Assembly (NCBI GenBank): GCA_028708845.1
Contig: JAQVXZ010000001.1
Coordinates: 1-64,000 of the forward strand
DNA length: 64,000 nucleotides
Direction: 5' to 3'
Source of the DNA: Bacteroidales bacterium
Lineage (GTDB): Bacteria; Bacteroidota; Bacteroidia; Bacteroidales; P3
Shown here piece after piece: positions 8,315 to 59,832 of this stretch; the stretch's first letter is position 1; each line of letters opens with the position of its first letter. The notes under the pieces were generated by a model. That model did not search any database. It had not been told where the DNA came from and saw only the letters and a program-made list of their open reading frames with translations. The position numbers were made by a program, and so were the translations under genes.

Positions 8315-9685
8315 TTACAACATACATTCTACCTGTGATCGTTTAGGTAATTTAATCCCTAATTTATAGAATTGTGAAAATTGATTTATTCTTACGTTAC
8401 TTATTGTTGTTTTTTCCTGTGTATCATCTAAGGGATAGATAATTAAACAAGGGATAACCGTTTTATGATAATCTTTTTTATTTATTTCACATTTCTTCAG
8501 TATTCCTATATCTCTTGCATATCCACTTAACTGTCTAACATCTTCTATTTTAAAACGACCTTTTACTTTTTCAGTTTCTTCAAATTTAATATCAATTTCT
8601 TCTTCAACTTCATTCTCCTTTTTAATAAGCCTATCACTATATACTGGCTTATATTTTGCATCAATTATTAACGGACTCTTGATTCTCAAATAATCAACAT
8701 TCCCGTATTTGCTTTTGAATTGATACTCTATTTTGTTACGCCTTGTTTGCATAAGAGTAAGAACATAAACCTCAAATAATAAAGGCATATCAATCCAGAA
8801 AGGAGGGAGGTTGCTATCAATTTCACTTGTTGCATTGTCAATTGAATAGCTAAAACGTCTAAGAATTAACTTTGCAACTTTTAAACTTTCGGCATAGTCT
8901 TTATATAATGGATTAACTTTAAATTGTTTTATTTGTTGAATGCTTAAATCATCAGAAACATATTCAAATGCTGATAAGCAACTATTACAGAGATTAGTTA
9001 AATCAATTGCTTTACAGCTAATAGCAGTATTATATGTTAGGTACTTCCGAACATACATTAGCGTTCTTTTTAATATTCTATTCTCAATGCAATCAACAGT
9101 GTAGTCTTGACACCTACAATAATACCTATCATCTCTTCCTTTAAAAGTATTTTGTTTAAGATTCCGAGAAAACAATATCTTACCCTTAATCTTAGAATTA
9201 AGATTTTCTTCTACTTGAATATAATCCTTTTTCAAATTACGTTTAACCAAAGACTGCATAAGCTTTAAGAAATGCACAATCAATAAAGGAGTTAATTCAA
9301 AAGTATTATTCTTAACTTCAATAGATTCTCTATTAAAATCAATATGATAAATATCTTTTAGTTTTTTCTTTGCTTCAGTATTATCACAATCAAAGCATTC
9401 CATAAACATCCTTAAATAATCCAACCTTTCAATCTTAGGTTCAACCATTATGGCTGTTTCTTTCTCAACAATCCAATCTAAACCAATATAATAATTAGCT
9501 TGAAAGGTCTTTTGCTTATGATTGCAACAACTTAATCCTAAATATCTATTTGCATCATTAACATCACAATCATTATAAATTGTTTCAGTATATTTATTCA
9601 ATAATTCTTTATAATCAAAGTTATTATCACTTGATTTTTGGTGTTCTTTGAATATTATTAGATTATGTTTCATTGCTTTGTCCAA
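8315..9685 (-). CDS. mcrC: McrC-family restriction nuclease subunit
   Basis: A 456-residue protein, the nuclease partner of a McrBC-type GTP-dependent restriction system. The N-terminal part has McrC features (YYIGLDWI, VEPKI). The C-terminal third has a PD-(D/E)xK nuclease core: E305 in LLFEVYVL, D331 in YGNVDYLRI and DAK at 342-344 in LIIDAKYKPVY. It overlaps the 3' end of the McrB gene by 23 bases (or 11 if Met5 is used), implying translational coupling. Such systems cut modified or foreign DNA; the specificity comes from the McrB N-terminus. Confidence 0.85.
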   Translation of the reverse strand: MDKAMKHNLIIFKEHQKSSDNNFDYKELLNKYTETIYNDCDVNDANRYLGLSCCNHKQKTFQANYYIGLDWIVEKETAIMVEPKIERLDYLRMFMECFDCDNTEAKKKLKDIYHIDFNRESIEVKNNTFELTPLLIVHFLKLMQSLVKRNLKKDYIQVEENLNSKIKGKILFSRNLKQNTFKGRDDRYYCRCQDYTVDCIENRILKRTLMYVRKYLTYNTAISCKAIDLTNLCNSCLSAFEYVSDDLSIQQIKQFKVNPLYKDYAESLKVAKLILRRFSYSIDNATSEIDSNLPPFWIDMPLLFEVYVLTLMQTRRNKIEYQFKSKYGNVDYLRIKSPLIIDAKYKPVYSDRLIKKENEVEEEIDIKFEETEKVKGRFKIEDVRQLSGYARDIGILKKCEINKKDYHKTVIPCLIIYPLDDTQEKTTISNVRINQFSQFYKLGIKLPKRSQVECML

Positions 9686-11573
9686 TTTCTTCAGGTTGAG
9701 AAGTTTCTTCTTTTGTTTGAATAGGCTTAATCCAATCTGTAAAATCTTTTTCTATTTCAAGGTATGTTCCTTTGGACTCATCATCTTTTTTACTTGGGAT
9801 TAAATTTATTATTCCATCGTTTGCATATTCTCTAAGTAATGGTTTAATTTCATATTCCAATTTAAGTTGTAATTCCTCTTCATCTTCCGCTAAGAAATAA
9901 CTATGACCTATCATCAAATCTTTAATAATAAAATCAGAAGCAATTTTGCCAGAAATTAAGGTCTTAACATTATTAAATATATTAATTGCCTTATTTTTTA
10001 AATCGTCATCATTATAATGGTTTTCTATAATTTTTTTATTAGACTCTAATGTGTAGAAAGCAAATCTACGTCTAATAGCATAATCAATATATCCTAAACT
10101 TCTATCAGCAGTATTCATTGTCCCAATAATATAAAGATTAGATGGAACTGAAAACTTTTCATTAGAATAGGGTAGCGTAGCCTGCAATTCATTTTCTTCT
10201 CCTTTCCTCTTGTCATTTTCCAAAAGAGTAATTAGTTCACCTAAGATTTTAGAAATATTACCTCTATTAATTTCATCTATAATTAAGACATAAGGTTTGT
10301 CATTATTTTCAATTGACTGTTCGTATTCTTTATTTTTCTTTATAATTCCTAATACATTATTTACAGATATATTACTAAGTTTATGAATTGTTTTCCGACT
10401 CATTTTTTTATTATTATTCAACTCATAAATATCTTCTCTAATATCTTTTACTATCCAATTTACCCTCCTTACTCTCTTCTTTTCTTTAAATGAATCATCC
10501 CATTCATATTCTCCTTCAATAATTCCAATTGCATCAATAAGTTTTTCAGAATAGCAACTTAAAACAACATCGCCAATTTCCATTGTGTTTATAAAATAAT
10601 CAAGATTTTGTTTACCATTTGTTATGTTTTTAATATCTAAATCTTTTCCGTATTCACTCCAGCCAATACGTATCCTATTATTATCTAAACAATCTCTTCT
10701 AACATCATTATCTCCAGTGTTTTTTAATGTAACTTTCCAGATAGTAACGTTTTCATCTATTTCTAATTCTTTATCATGTATAATAGGTCTATTAGCTTTT
10801 TCACACATCCTTTTGAAAATACCAGGAGTAACTTCAAATCGTAGAGGGTCAGAATCTTGAACAGGTTTTAATCCTTCAACAAATTCTTCATAGTCCATTG
10901 ATTGATGGAAAGTAGTAAAAGCTATTCTCCCCTCTTCTTTTAACTCACGATATCTTTCCATTATCTCTTTTCTTGTGTCTGGAACTTTATCATCACACAG
11001 CTTAACAGCAATTTCAGCACTATAATAAGTTTTTCCTGTCCCTGGTGCTCCTTGAAGAATAATTTGTTTCTTCGTTTTAAGAAGCTTGATAATACTATTT
11101 ATTTCTTTCATGTTACTAATATTTAACTTATTGATATAATCTAATCCTTCTGTGGGCAAGAAAAACTTACTTACCTTATGTAAATCTGTTCTTTCTAAAC
11201 CAAGTTCATTTAAATTCTCTACATATTTATCTAATAACGTACTAAATTCTTCATTATCTCTCTTCCTGCTTTTTATTATTTCCTTGTATAATTCCTTGAA
11301 TAAAGGAGAAGTTTCTTTCCTTCCATCACCATGGTTATTATTATGTTCGATGAAGTTGTTATTTAAATATCCTGAATATCTGGAAGGGCTAAATTTGAAT
11401 TTCCCATCGACTTGTTCAACAACAAAATTTTTACCTTTGCGAATCAAGTCTTCAGCGAATACTTTTTCACCATCATTCCCTTCTTTAACATAATTATACA
11501 ATGTTTTGATGTTATTTATAACGTCCTCTCTAGAAATAACAAGTTCTCTTGTAGTAACACGTTTTCTTACCAT
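9663..11573 (-). CDS. mcrB: McrB-family AAA+ ATPase/GTPase with an inserted domain
   Basis: The motor subunit of the McrBC system. Positions are counted from the upstream Met at 11600. Walker A is GAPGTGKT (184-191), Walker B is VLIIDEINRG (438-447), sensor 1 is GTMNTADRS (493-501), with arginines at 510-512. About 145 residues (~280-425) are inserted between Walker A and B; the pattern TIWKVTL, RIGWSEYG, IGDVVLSCY, IDAIGIIEGEY resembles EVE/PUA-like modified-base readers. The N-terminal ~150 residues include FKFSPSRYSGY and DGRKET, reminiscent of other restriction proteins. I prefer the start at 11573 because a -7 box overlaps the upstream Met. First gene of the mcrBC pair. Confidence 0.85.
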   Translation of the reverse strand: MVRKRVTTRELVISREDVINNIKTLYNYVKEGNDGEKVFAEDLIRKGKNFVVEQVDGKFKFSPSRYSGYLNNNFIEHNNNHGDGRKETSPLFKELYKEIIKSRKRDNEEFSTLLDKYVENLNELGLERTDLHKVSKFFLPTEGLDYINKLNISNMKEINSIIKLLKTKKQIILQGAPGTGKTYYSAEIAVKLCDDKVPDTRKEIMERYRELKEEGRIAFTTFHQSMDYEEFVEGLKPVQDSDPLRFEVTPGIFKRMCEKANRPIIHDKELEIDENVTIWKVTLKNTGDNDVRRDCLDNNRIRIGWSEYGKDLDIKNITNGKQNLDYFINTMEIGDVVLSCYSEKLIDAIGIIEGEYEWDDSFKEKKRVRRVNWIVKDIREDIYELNNNKKMSRKTIHKLSNISVNNVLGIIKKNKEYEQSIENNDKPYVLIIDEINRGNISKILGELITLLENDKRKGEENELQATLPYSNEKFSVPSNLYIIGTMNTADRSLGYIDYAIRRRFAFYTLESNKKIIENHYNDDDLKNKAINIFNNVKTLISGKIASDFIIKDLMIGHSYFLAEDEEELQLKLEYEIKPLLREYANDGIINLIPSKKDDESKGTYLEIEKDFTDWIKPIQTKEETSQPEEIGQSNET

Positions 11574-11597
11574 ATCAATAAATTTTAAATTATAAAG

Positions 11598-11605
11598 CAA
11601 AGATA
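11598..11605 (-). promoter_or_regulatory. -7 element of the mcrBC promoter
   Basis: On the minus strand these bases read TATCTTTG, an exact TAnnTTTG match. Transcription should start about 7-10 bases further on, after the Met codon at 11600, which supports translation from the ATG at 11573. No good TTTG lies 19 bases upstream. Confidence 0.5.
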
Positions 11606-12007: not shown

Positions 12008-12050
12008 TGACTTGTCCTGAAAAAAGTTGACACAAAAACAACTTAAAAAA

Positions 12051-12410
12051 ATGGACAAAACCGTAAAAAGAGAACCCATCACCGATGCCTTTCGTTACAA
12101 AGTAGTCAGTGATTTCCTTCAAAAAGGAGGCTCATGGAAAGAAGCAGCCCGAAGAAACGACATCTCAGATGGCACACTTCAGAGATGGATTAGTATCTTT
12201 GCACCATTATCGGAGTTTGAATTAGAACTCCCAGAAAACGAAACAGATATGGAAGCATTAGAAAAGAAGAAGCTAGAGAAACGTATTAAGGAATTAGAAA
12301 AAGCCTTAGAGTACTCTAACCTAAGGGCACGCGCCTATAACACAATGATTGATGTTGCAGAAGACATGTTTAAGATCCCCATCAGAAAAAAGCCTGGCAC
12401 CAAGCAGTAA
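12051..12410 (+). CDS. IS3-family transposase OrfA (InsE/helix-turn-helix)
   Basis: A 119-residue DNA-binding protein. The N-terminal helix-turn-helix reads FRYKVVSDFLQKGGSWKEAA, then RRNDISDGTLQRWI; the C-terminal half is a leucine-zipper-like coiled coil (ELEKALEYSNLRA). The upstream ATG-like start at 12027 lies within the inverted-repeat region and is less likely. The gene ends IRKKPGTKQ; within its KK codons lies the AAAAAAG slippage heptamer by which IS3 elements shift -1 to make the OrfAB transposase. Confidence 0.8.
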   Translation: MDKTVKREPITDAFRYKVVSDFLQKGGSWKEAARRNDISDGTLQRWISIFAPLSEFELELPENETDMEALEKKKLEKRIKELEKALEYSNLRARAYNTMIDVAEDMFKIPIRKKPGTKQ

Positions 12411-13326
12411 CAACACTGCGCATAGAAGAAAAACCTTCCTCCTTAAGTGGAATATGCGATCTGTTTGGTTATAGTAGGCAAGCTTACTACCAGTACAATA
12501 ACAAAGAATATGAGGCTTTTGCAGGAAAGGAGATAATCCTAGAGTATATTAGATATATAAGGGAAAAAAGTCCTAAGATGGGAGCAAGAAAATTACTTAT
12601 CATGATACAATCTCAGAAGAACCTACCCGCTTTAGGCAGAGACAAGCTTATCTCCTGGCTAAGAGAAGAAGGTCTTTTAGTCAAGACAAGAATAAGACGC
12701 TGCACAACAACAGACTCAGCCCACCACTATCATAAATACTCTAACCTAATAAGAGACTTCGTCCCATACAGACGTAATCAATTATGGGTAACAGACATAA
12801 CATACATCCAAACCCTGCAAGGATTTATCTATCTAAACCTAATAACAGACGCCTACTCAAGAAAAATAATAGGATGGAGACTAGCCCCAACCCTTGAAGC
12901 CAAATACTCCACACAAGCACTTGATATGGCAATAGATAATGCAGAAGAAGGACTAGAAATTCCGATAGAGGCGTACAATACTGTTGCATTAGATATACCG
13001 ACATACTCCAAAACAAAGGAATAAATATAAGCATGACAGAAAGTGGCGATCCCTTAGAAAATGCAATAGCAGAAAGAGTTAATGGCATCTTAAAGCAAGA
13101 GTGGATACATAATATGGACTTCAAAGACATAGAAGAAGCACAAGAAAGCATCTCAACCATCATTGACTTCTATAATAACGAAAGACCACACTCAAGTATC
13201 GATATGCTAACCCCTAACGTAGCTCATGACCTAGTTGGAGTAATCCAAAGAAGATGGAAGAACTACTACAAAACAAAAAAGGAGAAAGAAGAAAACATAG
13301 AGAATGAAATCTACGAATATGAATAA
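12386..13326 (+). pseudogene. IS3-family transposase OrfB (rve integrase), frameshifted
   Basis: Read after a -1 shift at 12386-12392. The first part (frame 2 to a stop at 13024) contains FGYSRQAYYQY, the HTH_21 region KMGARKLL and the first catalytic Asp in WVTDITYI. After IDNAEEGLEIP the frame is wrong; changing frame near 12958 restores SDRGVQYCCIRYTDIL, SMTESGDPLENAIAERV and the catalytic Glu. The bases GAAATTCCGAT where GAA-ATT-CAT-CAT-TCC-GAT would be expected suggest a seven-base deletion between ATTC repeats, removing the His-His before the second Asp. The enzyme is therefore broken at its active site. Confidence 0.8.
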
Positions 13327-13390
13327 ATAGAAAATAAAGTATATCTTTGTATCAAAATAGGGACCTTTGTCTCTAAAATTATTATCAGCC

Positions 13391-13460
13391 TGTTTTTATC
13401 AAGTGTAAACTAAAATCAGGACGATAGAAAACAAATGCAAACTGCATTTAGTCTTAATTA
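13391..13460. repeat. 70-bp repeat, copy A (inside the IS3 element)
   Basis: Aligned without gaps to 52131-52200, 62 of 70 bases agree, starting with an identical 20-base run TGTTTTTATCAAGTGTAAAC at both sites. Similarity continues more weakly (18 of 30) through the IS right inverted repeat. The block is non-coding. Confidence 0.8.
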
Positions 13461-13510
13461 CAAATCTGTCAACTTTATTCAGGACGGGTCAATCTTTGTT
13501 TTAAACTCAT

Positions 13511-13639
13511 GACATACCCATGTCAGACCTCGTGACATACCCATGTCAGGGTCGCTCACATGGGTATGTCACGTATGCTGACATGGGTATGTGACGGACT
13601 CTGACATACCCATGTGAGCGAGTCTGACATGCCCATGTC
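13511..13639. repeat. Hairpin-unit array 1 (six GACAT-4-ATGTC units)
   Basis: Six 14-base units at 13511, 13534, 13557, 13580, 13603 and 13626, exactly 23 bases apart. Each has GACAT/ATGTC-type arms around ACCC, GGGT or GCCC (units C, D and E have one C/G arm change). Units occur in both orientations: plus, plus, minus, minus, plus, and GCCC for the last. Spacers of nine bases vary but repeat words such as CGTG and AGCGAGT. There is no coding potential and no match to CRISPR layout. The rest of 13492-13879 is AT-rich with no gene. Confidence 0.8.
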
Positions 13640-13823
13640 GTGACTTTGTTTCTGCGTTTAAAAAGTTTGGGACTTTGTTTTAATATTTTATTCCTTGATT
13701 ATAGTAGTTTCTTTCTTTATTTCAGTGTTTTCTTCCTTCGTTTTATGATTTTCTTACGCCTATTTGTAACTTTTAACTATCTTCGCTTGTCTTATTAATA
13801 CAAACCTTTAGTAGAGTAAAGAG

Positions 13824-24573: not shown

Positions 24574-24637
24574 AAATGATGTAGATCTTTCATACCAAAT
24601 GATGCACATCTTTCGGGGTGAAAGATGTGCATCATTT
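24574..24637. repeat. Three-unit 18-mer array with an 18-bp hairpin
   Basis: AAATGATGTAGATCTTTC (24574-24591) and AAATGATGCACATCTTTC (24597-24614) are direct copies with two differences. The second pairs perfectly with GAAAGATGTGCATCATTT (24620-24637) across the five-base loop GGGGT. T-rich bases follow. It separates the convergent purM and nadB genes and may end transcription from both. The rest of the space to 24748 holds nothing recognisable. Confidence 0.8.
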
Positions 24638-35956: not shown

Positions 35957-36124
35957 AAACAAAGAAATAAACTTGTGAAACGCTGTATTAAACTCACCAA
36001 ACAAAGAAACAAACTCGTGACATGCCCATGTCAGACTACGTGACATACCCATGTCACGGTTGCTGACATACCCATGTGAGGAGTGCTGACATGGGTATGT
36101 GAGCGAGTGTGACATGGGTATGTC
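35957..36124. repeat. Hairpin-unit array 2 with 22-base direct repeat
   Basis: Five 14-base units with GACAT/ATGTC-type arms at 36019, 36042, 36065, 36088 and 36111, again exactly 23 bases apart: GCCC, ACCC, ACCC, GGGT, GGGT centres, the third and fourth with a G for the last C. In front, a 22-base direct repeat (35957-35978 and 35999-36020; 20 of 22 identical) with AAACAAAGAAA and AAACT. The rest of 35876-36257 is AT-rich with no gene. It is the same family as 13511-13639. Confidence 0.8.
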
Positions 36125-51988: not shown

Positions 51989-52130
51989 CCTTATAATTTA
52001 TAGAAAGCAAAGATACTTAAAAAGAAATAAATAATTGTACAAATTGATTATTAAATCTGATTACTTAGATTTTAGGGAAAGAATAGCATTATAAACCTCA
52101 ACTAAAACTTTAAATAAAGAAACCTCAACT
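51989..52130. other. Non-coding spacer with repeated AAACCTCAACT
   Basis: No reading frame is seen. Two AAACCTCAACT words (~52093-52104, and ~52119-52130) flank ACTTTAAATAAAG. This leads into the 70-bp repeat at 52131. Confidence 0.5.
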
Positions 52131-52200
52131 TGTTTTTATCAAGTGTAAACTAGAATCAAGACCATAGAAAACAAATGTAAATTGTATTTAGGCTTAGTTA
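52131..52200. repeat. 70-bp repeat, copy B
   Basis: Matches 13391-13460 at 62 of 70 bases without gaps, including an identical first 20 bases. There is no transposase, left inverted repeat or IS3 coding remnant around this copy; similarity decays through 52230, where GTAAACCTT and AAGGTTTAC form an inverted pair. Confidence 0.8.
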
Positions 52201-52273
52201 GAACTATGTAAACCTTGATTAGAACGAGGGAAACTAAGGTTTACACTTTTTAATCTTCGTTTTGATTCCCAAT

Positions 52274-52350
52274 TCATGCCATGATATGACCAGTTTCATG
52301 CCATGAATTGATAAGTATCATGGCATGAATTGGGTGGTATCATGGCATGA
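52274..52350. repeat. Hairpin-unit array 3 (four TCATGSCATGA units)
   Basis: Units of 11 bases (TCATGCCATGA twice at 52274 and 52296, then TCATGGCATGA twice at 52318 and 52340) spaced by exactly 22 bases, so the second pair is the reverse complement of the first. Each folds as a TCATG/CATGA hairpin around one base. AAACAAAG-type words follow (52377-52394, on the minus strand), as beside array 2. It is the same design as arrays 1 and 2 with different arm sequence. Confidence 0.75.
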
Positions 52351-59742: not shown

Positions 59743-59799
59743 ATGAATCGCTGAAACAATTTACTGAATCAAAGAAAGAAAATCTTGAATCAAAGAAAG
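59743..59799. repeat. Intergenic word-repeat region (TGAATC family), copy B
   Basis: ATGAATCGCT (59743-59752), TTACTGAATCAAAG (59761-59774) and TTGAATCAAAGAAAG (59785-59799) between convergent genes. The same words occur at 24489-24565. Confidence 0.45.
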
Positions 59800-59832
59800 G
59801 ATTTATTAAAACGAAGACTTAGAAAACAAGTT

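Follow-up and report, generated by a model that had tools for sequence, protein, structure and literature searches.

A row of six short palindromes at positions 13511-13639 raised the question of what kind of element repeats at an exact 23-base pitch between the genes of a Bacteroidales genome. The row was studied in the window (the whole stretch of 64,000 nucleotides that was analysed; features are listed in Table 1). Its units start at 13511, 13534, 13557, 13580, 13603 and 13626, with successive starts exactly 23 bp apart, which confirmed the number of units and the pitch given in a preliminary description of the locus. The unit centres read ACCC, ACCC, GGGT, GGGT, ACCC and GCCC in order; the changes between ACCC and GGGT mean that the orientation does switch, as had been proposed. 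GACAT/ATGTC arms had been ascribed to all units. They were found perfect in three of the six, with one outer base changed in the other three (CACAT in unit 3, ATGTG in units 4 and 5). The ends of the row hold for the units themselves, while the feature as a whole runs further: the left side of the array carries an AT-rich flank unit, and the right side a more degenerate form of it. In the window, GACAT-N4-ATGTC was matched 12 times at up to one mismatch (1.65 expected by chance), and 11 of these matches fall in array 1 and array 2. The IS3-family element adjoining array 1 on the left has apparently inserted into the left flank of the array. Part of its right end region, 123 bp long, is found again at 52125-52247 (78% identity), next to the family C array. 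McrBC-type restriction genes at 8315-11600 are neighbours of this element and of array 1.

Table 1. Positions of palindrome arrays and associated repeats in the window
Feature	Position	Strand	Description
IS3-family element	12013..13486	+	Degenerate; 20-bp ends TGTCCTGAAAAAAGTTGACA / CGTCCTGAATAAAGTTGACA; split orfB; outside the array
Array 1, left flank	13492..13510	+	ATCTTTGTTTTAAACTCAT, unit of the AT-rich repeat bracketing family A arrays
Array 1 (family A)	13511..13639	.	Six 14-bp palindromic units, 9-bp spacers, 23-bp pitch
Array 1, right flank	13640..13686	-	Two CTTTGTTT motifs, degenerate opposite bracket
Family B array	24576..24635	.	Three GATGYRCATC-type units, 23-bp pitch
21-bp AT-rich repeat	35957..36020	+	AAACAAAGAAATAAACTCGTG, three copies, abutting array 2
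Array 2 (family A)	36019..36124	.	Five units, 23-bp pitch; flanked by pheS and a lipocalin-like gene
Family C array	52273..52349	.	Four TCATGSCATGA units, 22-bp pitch, orientation ++--
21-bp AT-rich repeat	59753..59805	.	No palindromic core; between convergent genes

The preliminary description had suggested a search for similar arrays in the same genome and in related genomes. The dispersed palindrome-array family to which array 1 belongs was named family A, and the genome analysed here (2.43 Mb, 33% GC) G000; other G numbers denote comparison genomes. The search in G000 yielded 16 dispersed arrays with 88 units. These arrays account for 82 of the 83 unit-pattern matches obtained with up to one mismatch, compared with a single match for a reversed control pattern. 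The outcome in related genomes was divided: at least nine arrays were found in the sister species G004, five of them inherited vertically at sites orthologous to G000 arrays, and none was found with the paired-unit pattern in G009, the closest relative compared (pheS 97%, ppiD 95%, DNA 92%). Array counts in relatives are lower bounds (assemblies are fragmented, and a third G009 site falls at contig ends). With the paired-unit pattern, two genus members were positive for family A, G000 and G004, and the 39 further relatives searched gave none. A looser pattern gave no comparable array in 293 other Bacteroidales genomes, with a single unrelated-looking match in two of them. Scanning of the GTDB genome collection recovered the G004 records (Bacteroidales MAG Go_Prim_bin_146). 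It also recovered 23-bp arrays that have the ACAT/ATGT arms in common with family A and other centres (ACGT, GCGC, AGGC); these are in four genomes, two of uncultured Bacteroides, one of Xylanibacter muris and one a Prevotella MAG. The arrays in these four may be either homologous to family A or convergent.

Over 25 arrays, the family A unit reads S-A-S-A-T-R-S-S-Y-A-T-S-T-S (units are GACATRSSYATGTC), and the pitch is 23 bp in 109 of 110 steps. Intact arrays comprise 4-7 units; the cores of the 16 copies span 83-152 bp. The six A/T arm positions are identical in 135 of 135 units, a result that the unit detector partly presupposes. At positions 1, 7, 8, 14, 16 and 22 of the 23-bp repeat, at least 93% of units have C or G, and both bases are common there, which is unusual for a genome of 33% GC. 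CACAT-type units lie mostly in left halves of arrays and ATGTG-type units mostly in right halves. The copies are also homologous position by position, and the spacers follow a mirrored position consensus (identity 0.575 vs 0.455 after permutation). Polarity and mirrored consensus together indicate an inverted-symmetric plan that the arrays share, probably by ancestry. When spacers were exchanged between arrays at corresponding positions, identity was 0.569 compared with the observed 0.575, so there is no array-specific matching beyond the shared position consensus. An AT-rich flank unit with the consensus TTTCTTTGTTTCAAACTC tends to bracket the copies on both sides in inverted orientation; mean identity of the inverted flanks was 52% over 25 bp. 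The copies are intergenic, in tandem, divergent and convergent gene arrangements, with the nearest called gene 19-273 bp away. A preference for gene orientation, as a terminator would show, was not seen among the copies, and all three orientations occur.

The shared plan and the scattered copies fit MITE-like dispersal, and the 16 copies are short, non-coding and dispersed and have inverted ends. Family A could be a purely selfish MITE-like element without host function: a long palindrome, imperfect and flanked by AT-rich inverted sequences, that some transposase spread over many intergenic sites in an ancestor. Its 23-bp units would form an internal minisatellite as in BrickBuilt (see below). 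The position-specific spacers and the left/right polarity common to the copies agree with such an origin and suggest that the copies probably descend from one master array. The inverted repeats in the flanks, the confinement of the family to part of one genus and the placement of copies at the above distances from genes in all orientations fit as well. We nevertheless consider the purely selfish explanation unlikely, if worth keeping in view: neither a target-site duplication nor a clean empty site was found at the orthologous sites of G009, which differ over the whole intergenic region, contain a 21-bp repeat array or retain a single decayed unit; no transposase with such ends was encountered in unsystematic reading of the genome; and the conservation of the arms after dispersal, described below, is not explained by a dead element.

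Structure was tested on an alignment of 12 six-unit arrays. Within unit hairpins, 88.6% of cells pair, compared with 90.2% in shuffles. In unit 3 the outer pair is disrupted in 11 of the 12 arrays, and in unit 4 in 9 of the 12. Unit hairpins with compensatory changes were rejected on this basis, and the initial view of the locus as an array of short hairpins was not supported. The changes at the unit ends had been called arm-conserving; CACAT and ATGTG instead break the outer base pair. A perfect hairpin spanning the array was rejected as well, as mirrored unit centres are anti-complementary (42.4% paired vs 62.7% in shuffles, the observed value being reached or exceeded by all 500 shuffles). 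Array-wide pairing is otherwise no better overall than in shuffles (150 of 500 reach the observed value).

The array might nevertheless act as RNA, if read-through transcripts fold into a single long hairpin and thereby influence where transcripts end or how stable they are. Two results speak for this. Folding energies lie far below those of shuffles (z -7.1 and -9.5), and 12 spacer pairs across the array show two-sided changes, compared with 8.5 in shuffles (reached by 5 of 500). The strong energies follow from units that are complementary to themselves and to each other, and the spacer complementarity is accounted for by the shared position consensus noted above. Considering also the anti-complementary centres, the lack of better array-wide pairing and the absence of a gene-orientation preference, a role as RNA is improbable. 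Searches against Rfam gave no match above the gathering score; matches below it were mostly to microRNA precursors. Of the two alternatives offered initially, a protein-binding or an RNA-structural array, the results favour the first in the form of double-stranded inverted-repeat sites, while hairpin formation by the units was not borne out.

Divergence was determined from only five orthologous array pairs of G000 and G004, comprising 24 units. Inner arms differ at 8 of 192 sites (4%), spacers at 50 of 171 (29%) and 100-bp flanks at 155 of 857 (18%); the outer S positions differ at 7 of 48 sites and unflipped centres at 6 of 88. Fisher tests gave p=3e-11 for arms vs spacers and p=1e-7 for arms vs flanks. 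The arms of family A therefore appear to be under constraint. Together with the pitch, this substantiates the earlier suggestion that arms and spacing are retained and spacers vary, and it corresponds to what is seen in dimeric sites, where half-sites are kept and spacers are free. Homogenising gene conversion is not an expected cause of the pattern, since it should not correct 14-bp cores while sparing the 9-bp spacers between them.

The same orthologues bear on neutral growth of a minisatellite by slippage, in which template-switch correction within quasi-palindromes would preserve the palindromes. Unit numbers do vary between orthologues (5 vs 4; six units vs one decayed unit in G009), 2 of the 24 orthologous unit centres were flipped in place, and a 21-bp repeat pervades the intergenic DNA. 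However, template-switch correction should mend outer arm mismatches, and many units keep them, several being inherited at orthologous positions. Nor does slippage account for the restriction of unrelated families to a 21-23-bp pitch (see below), and we regard neutral slippage as quite improbable.

At the G009 site corresponding to the array at C25:179434, a 21-bp AT-rich array is present instead. At the site of the six-unit array at C54:28991, a single decayed unit remains with the same flanks on either side, and it is the only solo family A unit found in G009. Loss of family A in G009 is more likely than two independent gains, judged from the shared sites, because G004 is more distant and yet shares them with G000. 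The arrays are thus dispensable in the closest relative and not essential. Downstream of pheS, where array 2 and the lipocalin-like gene are located in G000, G009 carries a family B array of three units together with an HU-like gene.

The statement that no named element has this design proved too strong. The BrickBuilt element of Porphyromonas gingivalis is a minisatellite-MITE with a 23-nt tandem unit located between genes (PMC4596501). It occurs in about 19 strictly intergenic copies per genome, with variable unit numbers of up to 22.8, and copies are mostly conserved between strains at orthologous sites (PMC4596501). The units are direct repeats without spacers, and the element has long leader and tail regions and IS5-type 12-bp ends (PMC4596501). 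BrickBuilt is the closest described element to family A, with which it has in common the 23-nt unit length, the intergenic placement, the copy number and the variable unit number. Its published consensus, as distinct from genomic copies, also holds a 12-bp palindrome across the unit junction (TCTCATATGAGA). Family A differs in its unrelated sequence, its 4-7 units, the variable 9-bp spacers, the orientation switches and the flanks. Membership by sequence was rejected: the BrickBuilt unit AGAYCATARTATCCTCTCRTRTG, searched as a 32-base consensus pattern with up to 3 mismatches, had no match in G000 or 392 other Bacteroidales genomes. The IS5-type terminal inverted repeats GAGACCTTTGCA are absent from the 45-80 bp of family A flanks that were read. 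A literature search for other arrays of 21-23-bp palindromes in Bacteroidetes revealed nothing relevant.

REP/BIME elements resemble family A in being short intergenic palindromes that are dispersed in both orientations. Unlike these, family A has a fixed 23-bp pitch, arrays of 4-7 units, neither a GTAG nor a CGTC tag in the unit, and no associated RAYT that was found. G000 does contain four RAYT-like genes and one IS200-like gene, so that movement or maintenance by RAYT (Y1 tyrosine transposase) was considered. It is most improbable, as none of the RAYT loci examined had a family A unit nearby, and no RAYT was found in the array-bearing sister G004, the assembly of which is only 76% complete. 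Those RAYT-like Y1 transposase genes of G000 that were read are near-identical and have their own flanking repeats; elsewhere in the genus, single weaker matches were seen in two other members only.

Tandem operators and centromere-like arrays consist of regularly spaced inverted-repeat sites that are bound by dimeric proteins. Family A is similar to them in its regular inverted-repeat sites, conserved half-sites and free spacers, and differs in having sixteen chromosomal copies and no common adjacent partition or regulator gene that could be seen. The reading that we tentatively favour, with somewhat less than even confidence, is that array 1 is a dispersed MITE-like element, a long palindrome in which the units serve as phased docking sites for a putative dimeric DNA-binding protein. 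Sites of this kind for cooperative loading are suggested by the constrained arms, the free spacers, the fixed pitch and the lack of covariation in unit hairpins. The core of the element would be the row of 23-bp units, and each 14-bp inverted repeat would bind one protein dimer. A pitch of nearly two helical turns would let neighbouring dimers lie on about the same face of the DNA, and dimers aligned in this way may assemble cooperatively between genes, e.g. as an architectural or insulating platform; the protein, its cooperativity and any effect on neighbouring genes are putative. MITE-like spread may have come first and selection on the sites later, so that both readings are compatible. Some findings count against docking sites. 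As 23 is not a whole-number multiple of 10.5, each dimer would be rotated somewhat around the helix relative to the one before; the mirrored position-specific spacer consensus is not needed by independent binding sites; and the arrays were lost in the closest relative.

Family A is not the only palindrome array in this genome. A sequence-blind, arm-based scan of 240 kb of one contig detected 13 palindrome arrays, 11 of which have a pitch of 21-23 and fall into five sequence families, whereas three Markov controls of equal length gave 0, 1 and 0 chance arrays. G000 thus holds at least four families besides A, all with a pitch of 21-23 bp. Of 11 genus members, 10 carry family B (GATGYRCATC; three units at pitch 23). 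In the family C array at 52273, the cores differ from the G009 orthologue at 1 of 44 sites and the spacers at 8 of 33, a split like that between arms and spacers in family A. Family D is a palindromic 22-bp repeat (GTAAGGTGGCAGGTTACT...) at three sites of the contig (C25:113363, 199415 and 213373), and family E has AATGGCATT-type units at 21-bp pitch (G000 C25:214758-214831). Arrays of TAATGSCATTA with a 22-bp pitch occur in other genus members. Three TACC...GGTA inverted repeats with a 41-bp pitch were noted at C25:111429-111524, and a similar 41-bp set in G005; a 41-nt repeat element has been described in P. gingivalis.

The family A arrays are embedded in a degenerate 21-bp AT-rich repeat. 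Autocorrelation of intergenic DNA of their own contig has peaks at lags 21, 42 and 63. Lag 21 was the top lag in 9 of 9 genus members analysed and in some members of the taxonomic family, and it was not the top lag in the order-level genomes sampled. Stretches of Xylanibacter and Bacteroides peak at lag 23, as anticipated for stretches selected because of their arrays. The lag-21 signal in the genus is caused by the degenerate AT-rich repeat, which is TTTCTTCGTTTCAGTAAAT-like. Near-perfect seven-unit 21-bp tandem repeats (G001 L145:2059; G021 L174:18062) suggest ongoing expansion of 21-bp repeats in some species. The several families may belong to a general class of 'two-turn' palindrome arrays in Bacteroidales, in which the palindrome sequence turns over both between genomes and within them, while the 21-23-bp pitch and, at several positions, the GC/AT pair type, though not the strand, are kept. 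Such a class would point to a chromosome-organising system with species-specific binding partners that reads spacing and DNA shape more than sequence; we put this forward as speculation that is unlikely as it stands.

Repeats of this type between genes tend to be classed as junk or as mobile debris. For family A, the parts that resist mutation are now defined as the arms and the pitch, and nearly the same pitch recurs across several unrelated families in one genome. The loss of family A in a closely related species provides a natural experiment. If a protein binds the arrays, Bacteroidales would have a chromosome-scale DNA-binding system of a new type, and BrickBuilt would gain an explanation that can be tested.
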